NCBI GenBank assembly: GCA_903959175.1
Contig: CAJBVW010000353.1
Coordinates: 1-35,743, forward strand
DNA from: an uncultured Pseudomonadota bacterium
Lineage (GTDB): Bacteria > Myxococcota_A > UBA796 > SXON01
DNA length: 35,743 nucleotides
Direction of reading: 5' to 3'
In this document: positions 1-14,702 of the stretch, piece by piece
Position numbering within the stretch: position 1 is the first letter of the stretch
Layout of the letters: each line of letters begins with the position of its first letter
Made by a program: the position numbers and the translations under genes
Notes under the pieces: model-generated
Seen by the model: only the letters and a program-made list of their open reading frames with translations
Databases searched by the model: none
What the model was told of the DNA's origin: nothing

Positions 1-1119
1 AAGACGTCGCTGACCGCCGCGATCACCAAGGTGCTCGCGAAGTCGGGCGGCGCGACGTTCCTGGCCTATGACCAGATCGACAAGGCTCCCGAGGAGAAGG
101 CTCGCGGGATCACGATCAACACGGCGCACGTCGAGTACGAGACGAAGAACCGTCACTACGCGCACGTCGATTGTCCGGGTCACGCGGACTACATCAAGAA
201 CATGATCACGGGCGCCGCGCAGATGGACGGCGCGATCCTGGTGGTGTCCGCGGCCGACGGCCCGATGCCCCAGACGAAAGAGCACGTCCTGCTCGCGAAG
301 CAGGTCAACGTCCCCTACATCGTCGTGTTCCTTAATAAGTGCGACGTGCTGGACGACGCGGAGCTTCTCGACCTGGTCGAGATGGAAGTCCGTGAGCTCC
401 TGTCGGCGTACGACTTCCCGGGCGACAGCGTCCCCGTGATCCGCGGTTCGGCGCTCAAGGCGCTCGAAGGCGACATGAGCGAGATCGGTGAGCCGGCGGT
501 GCTGAAGCTGATGGCGGCGGTCGACGCCTCCATCCCCCAGCCGATCCGTGAGACGGAGAAGCCGTTCCTGATGCCGGTCGAGGACGTGTTCACGATCTCG
601 GGTCGTGGCACGGTGGCGACGGGCCGCATCGAGCGCGGGATCGTGAAGGTCGGCGAGAGCATCGAGATCGTGGGCTTCAAGGACACGGTGACCACGACGG
701 TCACGGGCGTCGAGATGTTCCGCAAGCTCCTCGACGAAGGCCAGGCGGGCGACAACGTCGGTCTGCTCCTCCGCGGCGTGAAGCGCGAAGACATCGAGCG
801 CGGCCAGGTGCTCTCGAAGCCGAAGTCGGTCATGCCGCACACGAAGTTCAAGGCCGAGGCCTACATCCTGAAGAAGGATGAGGGTGGCCGCCACAAGCCG
901 TTCTTCGACGGGTACCGTCCCCAGTTCTACTTCCGCACGACGGACGTCACGGGCGTCATCAAGCTGAAGGAAGGAGTGGAAATGGTCATGCCGGGTGACC
1001 GCGTTGAGATGGAGATCGAGCTCATCACTCCGATCGCTATCGAGAAGACCCTCCGTTTCGCGATCCGCGAAGGTGGCCGTACCGTCGGCGCCGGCGTCGT
1101 GTCCGAGATCATCAAGTAA
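1..1119 (+). CDS. tuf: Elongation factor Tu (5' end outside window)
   Basis: GTPase that delivers aminoacyl-tRNA to the ribosomal A site in the cytoplasm. The frame is open from base 1, beginning at the Lys of the P-loop (K-T-S-L-T-A-A), so roughly the first 23 residues are missing and about 372 remain. Visible G-protein motifs are the switch I region [16 protein letters not shown]3 DCPGHADY, G4 NKCD and G5 SALKALEG, followed by the two beta-barrel domains. The P-loop has Ser after GKT where many EF-Tus have Thr. The stop lies 9 nt before rpsJ, so tuf heads the S10 cluster in the str-S10 arrangement. The identification is secure; only the start is unknown. Confidence 0.98.
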
Positions 1120-1128
1120 GGAAGACCA

Positions 1129-1443
1129 ATGGCCTCCACCAACAAGATCCGCATTCGCCTCAAGGCGTACGATCACAAGCTGCTCGACAAGTCTGCGCGG
1201 GAAATCGTGGACACCGCTCGCCGTACCGGCGTGGCGATCCGCGGCCCCTTCCCTCTGCCGACTACGATCAGCCGGTGGACGGTGCTTCGCGGCCCCCACG
1301 TCGACAAGAAGTCGCGTGAGCAGTTCGAGCGCCGCACGCATCATCGTCTGCTCGACATCCTCGAGCCGACGCAGGCGACCGTGGATGCTCTGATGAAACT
1401 GGATCTTTCGGCCGGAGTCCACGTCGAGATCAAGCTGTCCTAG
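1129..1443 (+). CDS. rpsJ: 30S ribosomal protein S10
   Basis: Small-subunit protein of the 30S head that also pairs with NusB in transcription antitermination. The 104 residues match the family length. They contain the typical start ([14 protein letters not shown]), the loop GPFPLPT and the C-terminal strand VHVEIKLS. The start follows GGAAG by a few bases and lies 9 nt after tuf. In the classical S10 operon the next gene is rplC (L3). Here rplD follows after only 29 nt, which contain a good AGGAGG ribosome-binding site and no room for L3. Confidence 0.98.
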
Positions 1444-1472
1444 GCTGCATCTCGTCGGAACAGGAGGCGTTC

Positions 1473-2096
1473 ATGCCGGTGGTTGATTTGTACAATTCCG
1501 CTCGCGAGAAGCTCGGCACGGTCGAGTTGGACGAGCGGGTCTTCTCGGCTGATGTGAAGGAGCACCTCTTTCACATGGTCGTTCGGCACCAACTCGCCGC
1601 AAGGCGCTCGGGCACGCATGCGACCAAGCAACGCGCCATGGTCGCTGGCGGCGGCAAGAAGCCGTGGCGTCAGAAGGGCACGGGCCGGGCTCGTGCGGGT
1701 TCAACCCGCGCTCCGAACTTCCGCGGCGGTGGCGTGGTCTTCGGACCTCATCCCCGCAGCCACGCCTTCCAGCTCCCCAAGAAGGTTCGGCGGGCCGCGC
1801 TTCGTAGCGCCCTGTCGCGTCGTCTCGGTGAGCAGGCGCTCTACGTGCTCGACCAGGTGGTGCTGCCCGAAGTGAAGACGAAGCACTTCCGCACCTTCCT
1901 CGAGAGCTTCGGCTTCGAGAGCCTGCTGTTGGTCGTCGCGCAGGAGGACCACGCGGTTCGCCTCGCCTCGCGCAACATCCCGGGCGTCACCGTCCTCCCC
2001 GTCGCCGGTCTGAATGTCTACGACATCCTGCGGCACCGCAACATCGCTCTCACCGCGCCCGCGATCGCCCCGATCGTCGAGCGCCTGACGAGGTGA
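1473..2096 (+). CDS. rplD: 50S ribosomal protein L4
   Basis: Large-subunit protein that lines the peptide exit tunnel; in enterobacteria L4 also represses its own operon. The 207 residues are close to the usual length. The conserved extended loop KKPWRQKGTGRARAGSTRAPNFRGGGVVFGP is present in pieces around residues 66-97, and the C-terminal part carries the usual VYDILRH segment. The ATG follows AGGAGGCGTTC, a near-perfect Shine-Dalgarno. The gene sits directly after rpsJ, where L3 would normally intervene, and is followed 3 nt later by rplW. Confidence 0.97.
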   Translation: MPVVDLYNSAREKLGTVELDERVFSADVKEHLFHMVVRHQLAARRSGTHATKQRAMVAGGGKKPWRQKGTGRARAGSTRAPNFRGGGVVFGPHPRSHAFQLPKKVRRAALRSALSRRLGEQALYVLDQVVLPEVKTKHFRTFLESFGFESLLLVVAQEDHAVRLASRNIPGVTVLPVAGLNVYDILRHRNIALTAPAIAPIVERLTR

Positions 2097-2388: not shown

Positions 2389-3216
2389 ATGGGTACCAAG
2401 CGCTATAGCGCCAATACGCCGGGCCGCCGCTTCCTCGTCACCGCGGATTTCGCGGAGGTGACGGCGGACAGCCCGGAGCGCTCGCTCACTGCGCCCCTCC
2501 GGCGTACGGGCGGCCGCAACAATATGGGCCGGCGGACGTCCCGCCACATGGGCGGTGGGCACAAGCGCCGCTACCGCATCATCGACTTCCGTCGCGACAA
2601 GATGGAAGTGCGCGGTGTCGTGGCTACGATCGAGTACGATCCGAACCGCAGCGCTCGCATCGCGCTCATCCACTACGTGGACGGCGAGAAGCGGTACATC
2701 ATCGCGCCCCTCGGGCTGAACGTCGGTGATTCGGTTGTCGCGAGCGACTCGGCCGACATCAAGCCGGGCAACGCGCTCCGCCTGACGGCGGTACCGCTCG
2801 GTACGTTCATCCACAACGTGGAGCTCAAGGTGGGTCGCGGCGGGCAGATCTGCCGCTCGGCTGGCTGCTTCGCACAGGTCATGGCGAAGGAGGGCAAGTA
2901 CGTCCTCCTCCGCCTCCCGTCCGGCGAGCTCCGCAACATCCTGGCCGAGTGCCATGCGACGATCGGGCAGGTCGGAAACATCGAGCACGAAAACATCGTC
3001 CTCGGCAAGGCGGGTCGCGCGCGCTGGTTGGGCTATCGCCCGGCCGTTCGCGGTACCGCCATGAACCCCATCGATCACCCGCATGGCGGTGGTGAGGGGC
3101 GCACCAAGGGTGGCCGGCATCCGGTTACCCCGTGGGGCAAGCCCACCAAGGGTTACAAGACCCGGTCCCGGAAGAAGCCGTCCGGCCGGTTCATCGTCAA
3201 GCGGCGTGAGAAGTAG
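2389..3216 (+). CDS. rplB: 50S ribosomal protein L2
   Basis: Core large-subunit protein needed for subunit association and peptidyl transferase assembly. The chosen ATG at 2389 gives 275 residues, the normal length, starting [14 protein letters not shown]. An in-frame start at 2254 would only add sequence that overlaps rplW. Hallmarks are [22 protein letters not shown] near residue 45 and the near-invariant [15 protein letters not shown] around residues 225-240, which includes the His close to the peptidyl transferase centre. The ATG is only 1 nt beyond the rplW stop. Confidence 0.98.
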
Positions 3217-11837: not shown

Positions 11838-12617
11838 GTGATCCCGATCAAGGAGCCGTGGGAGCTCGGCGTGATGCGCACCGCCGGCAGGAAGCTCGCC
11901 GAGGTAGTCGCCGGGCTGCGGGAGAAGATCGTTGTCGGTATTCCGACGATCGACCTCGACCGCATCACTGAAGAGGCCATCTTGGCGTTGGGCGCAAAGC
12001 CTGCGTTCAAGGGGTACAAGGTGGGCCGAGCGGTCTTTCCGGCCACCATCTGCGTCTCGATCAACGAGCAGGTGGTGCACGGCATCCCCTCCAAACGGCG
12101 CCTCGAGGAGGGGGACCTCGTCTCCCTGGACTTCGGGCTCGTTTATGGGGGGTATTACGCCGACTCGGCCTTCTCCGTCGGGATGCCGCCCGTTTCCCCG
12201 GCGACGGCGCAGCTCCTTGACACGACCGAGAAGTCCCTATATGAGGCGGTCGCTCGCGCCCGGGTCAACAACCGCATCGGCGACATCGGACACACGGTCC
12301 AGTCGTACTGCGAGTCGAGAGGCCTGGGGGTGGTGACTCAGTTCGTGGGTCACGGGATCGGACGCAAGCTCCACGAGGAGCCGAGCGTTCCGAACTTCGG
12401 CAAGGCCGGCACCGGCTTCCCGCTCAAGGCGGGGATGGTGCTGGCGGTCGAGCCGATGGTCACCCTGGGCTCGCCAAGAACTCGCATCCTGAAGGACGAC
12501 TGGACGGTCGTGACCGAGGATGGGAGTCGCGCCGCACACTTTGAACATACTGTAGCGATCACCCCGACGGGCCCCGAGATCCTCACGGTCTTGGAGCCCA
12601 TCCCCCCCATCCGTTGA
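11838..12617 (+). CDS. map: Methionine aminopeptidase, type I
   Basis: Removes the initiator Met from nascent proteins. The 259 residues have all the pita-bread metal ligands: Asp98 (SLDFG), Asp109 (YYADS), His172 (GHGIG), Glu205 (AVEPM) and Glu236 (HFEHTV), plus the substrate-contacting His81 (VVHGIP). There is no N-terminal zinc-finger extension. The start is GTG at 11838, 11 nt after adk, with no strong Shine-Dalgarno, so a start a few codons away is possible. In many genomes infA lies between map and rpmJ; here only 28 nt separate them. Confidence 0.97.
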
Positions 12618-12645
12618 ACCGGCAATCGCCGGCGAGGAGACTCCA

Positions 12646-12759
12646 GTGAAGGTCAAGGCCTCAGTGAAGGTCATCTGTGACAAGTGCACCGTCATTCGTC
12701 GACGCGGCATCGTCCGCGTGATCTGCGTCACCGCTAAGCACAAGCAGCGTCAGGGCTAA
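12646..12759 (+). CDS. rpmJ: 50S ribosomal protein L36
   Basis: Tiny zinc-binding large-subunit protein of 37 residues. Translating from GTG 12646 gives [19 protein letters not shown] followed by [18 protein letters not shown]. The zinc ligands (CDKC, a later Cys and the final His) are the form seen in classical L36. GGCGAGGAGACTCCA supplies a good ribosome-binding site. It lies between map and rpsM, its usual position when infA is absent. The gene is short and easily missed, but family identity is clear. Confidence 0.96.
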
Positions 12760-12768
12760 GGAGGACGA

Positions 12769-13134
12769 ATGGCACGCATCGAAGGCGTCGATCTTCCGCG
12801 CAACAAGCGGATCGACATTGCACTCAGCTACATCTACGGCATCGGCCGCAAGTACGCAGCGGACATCTTGGTGAAGGCCCAGGTGGACGGCTCGATCCGC
12901 ACGCAGGACCTGTCCGAAGTGGACATCGCGCGCATCCGCGACGTGATTCAGCGCGAGTACCGCGTTGAGGGCGAGCTCCGCAAGGAGGTCGCCATGAACA
13001 TCAAGCGGCTGATCGACCTCGGCACCTACCGCGGGAGCCGCCATAAGCGCGGGCTTCCTGCGCGTGGTCAGCGCACCCACACCAACGCACGTACCCGCAA
13101 GGGTCCTCGTCGCGTTGTCGCCAAGAAGAAGTAG
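12769..13134 (+). CDS. rpsM: 30S ribosomal protein S13
   Basis: Head protein contacting P-site tRNA and subunit bridges. The 121 residues begin [30 protein letters not shown], with a helix-hairpin-helix region. The C-terminal tail is the usual basic [31 protein letters not shown], which contacts tRNA. AAGGAGGACGA before the ATG is a near-perfect Shine-Dalgarno. rpmJ lies 9 nt upstream and rpsK 15 nt downstream. Confidence 0.98.
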
Positions 13135-13149
13135 CGGGAGGGATCGGAA

Positions 13150-13548
13150 ATGAGTACCGCAGCTGGCGCAAAGAAGAAGGGCCCGAAGAGGGTCAAGAAG
13201 AACGTTCCGCACGGGATGGTTCACATCCAGTCAACGTTCAACAACACGATCGTCACCGTGACCGATCCGGGCGGGAATACCGTCGCCTGGTCGAGCGCCG
13301 GCGTGAAGGGCTTCAAGGGCTCCCGCAAGAGCACGCCGTTCGCGTCGCAGCTCGTGGCGGAAGACGCCGCCCGCAAGGCGATGGAACACGGCATGAAGTC
13401 TGCCGGCGTGGTCATCAAGGGCCCGGGTGCGGGTCGTGAGTCCGCGCTCCGCGCGATCCAGAACGCGGGTCTGAAGGTCACGATGATTACCGACGTGACG
13501 CCCATCCCGCACAACGGCTGCCGCCCCCCCAAGCGTCGCCGCGTCTGA
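13150..13548 (+). CDS. rpsK: 30S ribosomal protein S11
   Basis: Platform protein near the mRNA exit (E-site) side. The 132 residues show the family core: [45 protein letters not shown], then [43 protein letters not shown] Lys-rich N-terminus ([13 protein letters not shown]) is typical. GGGAGGGATCGGAA precedes the ATG. The expected next gene rpsD (S4) is missing: the 146 nt before rpoA contain no coding sequence but a strong hairpin. Confidence 0.98.
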
Positions 13549-13555
13549 ATCCACC

Positions 13556-13585
13556 CGACCAGGAGGTGGTCTCACCTCCTGGTCG
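13556..13585 (+). promoter_or_regulatory. Strong hairpin between rpsK and rpoA (possible attenuator)
   Basis: A perfect 13-bp stem: CGACCAGGAGGTG (13556-13568) pairs with CACCTCCTGGTCG (13573-13585) around the loop GTCT. It starts 7 nt after the rpsK stop. The left arm holds a perfect Shine-Dalgarno AGGAGGTG and the right arm its complement CACCTCCT, the same sequence as the 16S anti-Shine-Dalgarno. No start codon follows closely and no clear T-tract is present (GCCTTACCGTT). The remaining 109 nt to rpoA show nothing else clear. Confidence 0.75.
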
Positions 13586-13694
13586 CCTTACCGTTCCGTC
13601 GGCTGGGCCAGCCGCGTCGTTTGGACGAGGGACGGTTCCTAACGGGTGATGAGCGTCGGAGGCCACGACGCAGAAGCCCGAACAGGAGCATCTA

Positions 13695-14702
13695 ATGGTT
13701 GGTGAACACGTCTACAGCAATTGGCGCAGCCTCATCAAGCCGAAGCGGATTGAGCGGGACGCGAAGTCGGGTGAGACCTACGGCAAGTTCGTGGTCAAGC
13801 CCCTTGAGCGCGGTTTCGGCATCACGCTCGGGAACGCGCTCCGGCGCGTGCTGCTGTCTAGCCTTCAGGGCGCGGCCGTCACGACCGTGAAGATCGACGG
13901 TATCCTTCATGAGTTCTCGTCGATCCCTGGCGTCATTGAAGACGTCACGGACATCATCCTGAACGTGAAGGGCATCCTGATCCGTACGGATCGTACCGAG
14001 CCGTTCAACGCGACCATCGACATCGAGGGTACCGCCGGCCAGACCCGCGTGGTCACCGCTGGTGACATCCGCTTCGACGGTGCGGCGGAGATCCTCAACC
14101 CGGATCATCCGATCGCCACTCTCACCGGCGTCGGCCGTCTCCACATGGAGATGGGCGTTGCGATGGGCAAGGGCTACGTGCCGGCTGACCGCAGCAAGCG
14201 TGAGGAGACGCCGATTGGCACCATGCCTATCGACGCGATTCACTCGCCGATTCGCCGCGTGAAGTACACGGTGACCAACGCCCGCGTTGGCCAGCGTACG
14301 GACTTCGACAAGCTCACGCTCGAGGTCTTGACCAACGGTAGCGTGTCCCCCGAGGATGCGGTGGCGTTTGCGGCCAAGATCCTCAAGGAGCAGCTCCAGG
14401 TCTTCATCAACTTCATGGAAGTTGATGAGCCGTCTGCGGGCGAGGAGCGCGTTCCCGAGCAGCAGTTCAACGACGCGCTGTTCAAGCGCGTCGACGAGCT
14501 GGACCTCTCGGTACGGTCGGCCAACTGCCTCCAGAACGCCGGTATCGAGTTCATCTGGCAGCTCGTGGAGAAGACTGAGGCGGAGATGCTGAAGACCAAG
14601 AACTTCGGCCGCAAGTCCCTCAACGAGATCAAGGAAATCCTCTCCGAGCTGGGTCTCTCGCTCGGCATGAAGCTCCACAATTTCCCGAAGAGCCGCGGCT
14701 AG
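13695..14702 (+). CDS. rpoA: RNA polymerase subunit alpha
   Basis: Assembly platform of RNA polymerase; its C-terminal domain binds UP elements and activators. The 335 residues have the N-terminal dimerisation domain with [30 protein letters not shown] (around residues 40-70) and [20 protein letters not shown] linker follows near residues 235-255, and the C-terminal domain has the helix-hairpin-helix motif [17 protein letters not shown] and [30 protein letters not shown] precedes the ATG. It lies downstream of a strong hairpin and is followed by rplQ, but rpsD does not precede it. Confidence 0.98.

Follow-up and report, generated by a model that had tools for sequence, protein, structure and literature searches.

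Ribosomal protein L3 gene outside the S10 cluster across a bacterial phylum, with a covarying hairpin at its start in one order

The S10 cluster of the window

The DNA analysed here (hereafter the window) is a stretch of 35,743 nucleotides that begins inside tuf and continues into a ribosomal protein gene cluster. The features at its left end are as follows:

1..1119, plus strand, tuf (EF-Tu), 5' end cut by the contig end; named by eye from the translation
1129..1443, plus strand, rpsJ (S10); NCBIfam NF001861 and TIGR01049 over cut-off, 157 bits
1444..1472, no strand, rpsJ-rplD junction, the usual site of rplC; 29 nt, with matching empty junctions in 21 other genomes
1473..2096, plus strand, rplD (L4); TIGR03953 over cut-off, 241 bits
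2100..2387, plus strand, rplW (L23); NF004366 over cut-off
2389..3216, plus strand, rplB (L2); PF03947 and PF00181 over cut-off

The order rpsJ-rplC-rplD is one of the most conserved gene orders in bacteria, and this contiguous, canonical arrangement of the S10 operon does not occur in the window. The rpsJ stop codon TAG (1441-1443) and the rplD start codon ATG at 1473 are separated by 29 nt (1444-1472), which hold an AGGAGG before rplD and no coding remnant, and a tblastn search with L3 (E <= 1e-8) found no L3 in the whole window. A sequence-only reading of the same DNA had claimed that rplC was missing from this place and that the short gap kept a normal ribosome-binding site, and both the coordinates and the AGGAGG agree with it.

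The rplC gene of the window's genome

The window's genome (G000) comprises 7.2 Mb in 611 contigs with a completeness of 95%. The sequence-only reading left two options, a gene located elsewhere or a deletion introduced by assembly, and the first of them holds, as a genome-wide search for rplC returned a single match over cut-off, on contig C342, another contig than that of the window (C353). This rplC is intact, spanning positions 1-202 of the 202 profile positions of TIGR03625 without stops, and its product of 224 aa, scoring 247.4 bits against a cut-off of 142.9, is identified as a bacterial ribosomal protein L3. The upstream neighbour on the same strand encodes a protein with Ig-like (HYDIN/ASH-type) domains, and downstream lies a CoA-transferase gene pair on the opposite strand and, beyond it, an IMP dehydrogenase gene. 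Since the next downstream genes, the CoA-transferase pair, point the other way, rplC is probably a stand-alone transcription unit.

The position of this gene relative to the window was estimated from two further genomes, G029 and G062, in each of which one contig carries relatives of the window genes in order and then, reversed, those of the right end of C342. The reversed set runs to and past rplC, and 6-8 kb between the two sets are unmatched. By synteny, the right ends of the window contig and of C342 appear to face each other, which would place rplC about 44 kb (plus any gap) downstream of rplD in the window's genome, in inverted orientation.

Spread of the relocation across the phylum

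Searches for rplC and rplD covered 63 genomes of the window's order, 71 of its class and an even draw of 245 from its phylum. Both gene places were among the matches listed in 121 genomes (the window's included) from the phylum draw and the order members, a count that leaves out G042 and G057, which gave partial rplD matches only. The two genes lay within 1 kb of each other in none of these 121. Nine of them had both genes on one contig, eight belonging to the window's order, with gaps of 12.7-46.5 kb, rplC downstream of rplD in each case and on the opposite strand in 7/8; in the ninth, G190, the genes are 2.45 Mb apart.

The junction itself was too short for rplC in 21/21 other genomes, with 5-175 nt between the aligned ends, stop codon included, where rplC would need about 620 nt. 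In G001, a genome of the same genus whose S10 is 100% identical to that of the window, the aligned ends of S10 and L4 are 32 nt apart, equal to the window (29 nt plus the stop codon). The genuine relocation proposed from the spacing of the window alone is thus supported both by the rplC found elsewhere in the genome and by the empty junction in relatives. Going beyond that proposal, the empty junction is a lineage trait and not a peculiarity of the window's genome, and the absence of adjacent genes from all 121 judged genomes points to an old trait.

The usual arrangement prevailed in a scan of named loci, in which the best 80 L3 loci were listed. Among these best 80, rplC stood beside rplD in 71, including loci from Actinomycetota, Pseudomonadota, Acidobacteriota, Poribacteria, Chloroflexota, Bacillota and Binatota, and rpsJ-rplC-rplD was contiguous in 68; in the three further loci with adjacent rplC and rplD, rpsJ was cut off (L108) or lay 671-684 nt upstream (L127, L152). 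The other nine were titled Deltaproteobacteria (5), Myxococcales (3) and uncultured bacterium (1), one of them (L148) reaching only 376 nt downstream of rplC. By their taxonomy labels, eight of these nine are filed under Myxococcota and the ninth has no label, and L101, also one of the nine, carries the rplC leader hairpin described below. Considering these labels and the leader in L101, the phylum with the relocated rplC is most likely Myxococcota.

A covarying hairpin at the start of rplC

A leader of the form CGUA-N-[GACGG ... CCGUC]-C-N-AUGCGAGG, with a stem that is usually GACGG...CCGUC, was present in 57/57 rplC loci fetched from the window's order; 58 order genomes had an rplC match, and the 58th, G038, was partial and not included. 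The 3' end of AUGCGAGG is a Shine-Dalgarno-like tract, GCGAGG or GCGGAG, which ends 4-8 nt before the start codon. This tract lies on the 3' side of the stem, and the structure overlaps or abuts the ribosome-binding site, as in ribosomal protein leaders.

Paired changes in the stem were seen as A-U to G-C in three loci of family f4, as A-U to U-A in G036 and as C-G to A-U in members of families f3 and f5. A covariance model was built on 24 of the 57 leaders, with short hairpin loops, after L066 and L090 had been dropped as near copies. In these 24 sequences 98.3% of the cells were paired, and both partners had changed in 11 cells, where shuffles gave 2.3; a shift of the partner by 1-3 columns reduced pairing to 24-49%. 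The 57 distinct rows of model hits, in an alignment fitted to the structure, gave 97.2% paired cells, 20 double changes against 4.2, and 24-58% pairing when slid. Double changes occur in four of the ten pairs. These four belong to the inner helix, which thus covaries as in ribosomal protein leaders; a count of four was reached by 6/500 shuffles of the 24 rows and by 29/500 of the 57 rows, in shuffles that ignore relatedness. The outer helix, CGUA/UGCG, never varies, and is therefore without covariation support and unproven. Folding energies of single leaders are weak (z 0.38 to -2.36 for eight leaders); the best fold of the G000 leader contains the proposed helices at no unusual energy, and that of G001 differs.

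A promoter-like pattern 80-150 nt upstream of rplC, chosen after inspecting the sequences, occurs in 21/57 loci, against 2.5% in shuffles of single letters, which lends support to a putative promoter of its own for the relocated rplC; the other 36/57 lack the pattern. The rplC leader of G048 is closely preceded by a weak hit of the regulatory sRNA family Pxr (L036:8406-8523, minus strand; 31.1 bits, gathering score 80, E 0.098).

Specificity of the leader and related elements

The covariance model hit the stretch right before rplC in 57/57 order loci, of which 33 were outside the training set, some of them close to training rows. It gave no hit in 14 rplC loci of other orders, in 20 junction loci, in the window or in a 23S locus, and one stray weak hit in L061. 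A scan of 377 genomes (E <= 0.1) returned 54 of the 63 order genomes with one hit each, and in 54/54 the rplC match begins 11-19 nt beyond the hit. Among the nine order genomes missed, three belong to the window's own genus, whose leader has a long loop, scores only 26-27 bits with the model and was missed genome-wide, and in the other six rplC was matched in part or not at all. Outside the order, the model hit G349, G332, G320 and G256; the stretches fetched around these four hits contain no L3 match, and the hits were taken as chance. The leader motif, with two mismatches allowed, had no match in the window, and Rfam 15 gave three hits on 16 rplC loci, all far below gathering scores and none on the element.

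A related element, CGCGA-N-GAACG...CGUUC-CAAUCC, lies just upstream of rplC in 11/14 loci of family f17, with some mismatches and with stem changes peculiar to it, the pattern being written from the counted sequences. The covariance model aligns one f17 element in register, weakly (9.1 bits, E 0.92), and by eye UCCAAU[G/C]CGAGG is common to the order and f17 elements, which may owe their likeness either to descent or to convergence. No such element was seen at the rplC loci of families f12, f13, f15, f25, f28 and f30, indicating that the relocation does not require the leader. In family f12 (L205, L207, L208), the sequence GGACTCCAA(C/A)AAGC precedes rplC, and behind it a hairpin may form close to the Shine-Dalgarno sequence; this shared sequence is perhaps another leader.

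Proposed regulation of the relocated gene

According to two reports (PMC10931766, PMC2704228), control of the E. coli S10 operon, and with it of L3, is exerted through L4. A relocated rplC would escape this L4-type operon control, which makes a private feedback loop a sensible substitute. We consider it likely that rplC left the S10 cluster at an early point in the history of the phylum, that it persists elsewhere as an intact single gene and that, in the window's order, its leader hairpin serves L3 autoregulation. The relocation itself, the covarying inner stem and the Shine-Dalgarno-like tract on its 3' side are shown; beyond these, free or excess L3 would bind the leader hairpin, and the bound hairpin would hide the ribosome-binding site and block initiation, whereby L3 output would be tuned to ribosome assembly and the control lost on leaving the operon replaced.

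An L3 autoregulatory leader is the likeliest reading of the hairpin, with L3 as the presumed ligand and the regulation likewise presumed. A less favoured reading, unlikely but of real weight, is that the hairpin is a genuine regulatory RNA whose ligand is not L3, such that another protein, a small molecule or plain folding sets the translation rate. L3 is assigned only because rplC is the sole gene behind the hairpin, and no rRNA mimic is established, which leaves room for such a ligand; on the other side, the order genomes with a model hit have one each, always beside rplC, and the genes downstream of rplC are convergent in G000, which together make L3 the obvious candidate. Mimicry of rRNA by the 3' strand of the leader is not claimed, since the one match to a 23S gene, CAATGCGTGGAG in G212, is short and estimated to be near chance in 3 kb, and since f17 has UCCG where the order has UGCG. 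The 23S genes of G000, G048 and G032 were not found.

The autoregulatory reading can be extended, tentatively and with more doubt than confidence, beyond the window's order: rplC would have been lost from the S10 cluster at the root of Myxococcota, and at least two lineages would keep a homologous, undescribed L3-binding leader, a hairpin ending in CNAU[G/C]CGAGG, with its own feedback loop, as the first autoregulatory leader known for a bacterial L3.

Gene neighbourhoods and history of the relocation

Outside the window's order, 22 rplC loci (8 named and 14 others) were compared, two of which, L041 and L148, end too soon after rplC to show what follows it. The same conserved ORF lies directly downstream of rplC on the same strand in 11/22 of them, and 11/11 of these ORFs match PF01728 (FtsJ/RlmE family of rRNA methyltransferases); for the four run against NCBIfam, the best match was TIGR00438, below the equivalog cut-off. 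A TatD-family gene precedes rplC in 6 of these 11 loci (4 of the 6 tested). In the window's class, an IMP dehydrogenase gene is found on the downstream side of rplC in G000 and f9.

An L3 tree was calculated from 82 rows, namely 19 of the 57 order loci, 14 other phylum loci, the 9 named relocated loci and 40 of the 71 named adjacent ones. On the free quick tree, gene-order state required two changes, against a mean of 27.7 in shuffles, and 0/500 shuffles were as low. The extra change is due to L176 (Binatota, canonical order, long branch), which the free tree places, weakly supported, among the relocated rows. When all 42 relocated L3 rows were constrained to one group, the resulting tree was 8.5 log units better than the free tree (p-AU 0.63). 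These comparisons agree with, but do not prove, a single relocation, which apparently took place at the base of Myxococcota, and the simplest history is one early move followed by later reshuffling.

Several independent exits of rplC from the cluster within the phylum are improbable. The neighbours do differ, since the window's class has CoA-transferases and guaB, other families have RlmE and still others have neither, and the free quick tree requires two state changes; against this, the ancestral order is kept in none of the 121 judged genomes, RlmE behind rplC is common to families f17, f18, f19, f20, f29, f31 and f42, and of the two trees the one-clade version has the better fit. Slightly less probable still is a replacement, in which the cluster's rplC was lost at the phylum root and a foreign copy took over at a new site. 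It would agree with the finding that no S10-cluster gene accompanies rplC in the examined rplC loci, and protein identity is indecisive, with the best two named hits at 59% (Deltaproteobacteria) and 50% (Myxococcales) and actinobacterial ones next at 47-49%, but a single clade can accommodate the L3 rows of the phylum, which are not nested within the sampled Actinomycetota or Pseudomonadota. An assembly artefact, with rplC collapsed or deleted at the junction, is rejected as having practically no chance, since for all the fragmentation of the genome into 611 contigs and the start of the window inside tuf, an intact rplC exists elsewhere in G000, independent genomes (21/21) share the empty junction and 0/121 have the genes adjacent.

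Comparison with known systems

Genes of the S10-spc-alpha cluster are known to relocate. In Borrelia and Treponema, the dispersed genes of this cluster include fus, adk, infA and rpsD (PMC2481283); the present case is alike in that cluster genes lie elsewhere in the genome, and unlike it in that the dispersed genes named in that account do not include rplC. What goes beyond such relocations is the apparent phylum-wide reach and the candidate L3 leader.

The E. coli S10 operon comprises the same genes, and one of its own protein products controls it by binding a structured RNA leader, according to the reports mentioned above (PMC10931766, PMC2704228), whereas here L3 is only a candidate ligand, rplC is no longer part of the operon, and the element precedes rplC instead of rpsJ. 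Table 1 of Eckert and Weinberg (2020) gives 20 new r-protein leaders, none with L3 as ligand (PMC7247131); the comparison covers this table and not their Table S1 of 35 earlier leaders. Like those leaders, the present element is a short covarying RNA upstream of an r-protein gene in a single lineage; unlike those of Table 1, it belongs to the L3 gene, and it has no match in Rfam 15. In the open-licence literature, no description of an rplC relocation or of an L3 leader was found. The new element is the covarying hairpin at the rplC start in the window's order, running into the Shine-Dalgarno sequence.

A phylum-wide exception to rpsJ-rplC-rplD would serve as a marker for the phylum, and it offers a natural experiment on the control of a ribosomal protein once its gene leaves the operon. 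If L3 binds the hairpin, an L3 leader would join the catalogue and show how balance is restored after relocation.

Further features of the cluster

In a number of order genomes, about 450-610 nt separate rplD from a contig start, so that their contigs break within tuf or shortly behind it. A repeated tuf would produce such a pattern, and duplicated tuf may account for these breaks. Within the window, the interval between map and rpsM (12617-12769) contains rpmJ only (12646-12759, PF00444) and has no room for infA, an observation on this locus alone. Nor does rpsD (S4) lie between rpsK and rpoA (13548-13695), where it usually stands, and a full-length rpsD over the family cut-off lies at G000:C505:10155-10757. 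L29 (5004-5327) is 107 aa long, with a family match to residues 5-58 only and a long C-terminal extension.
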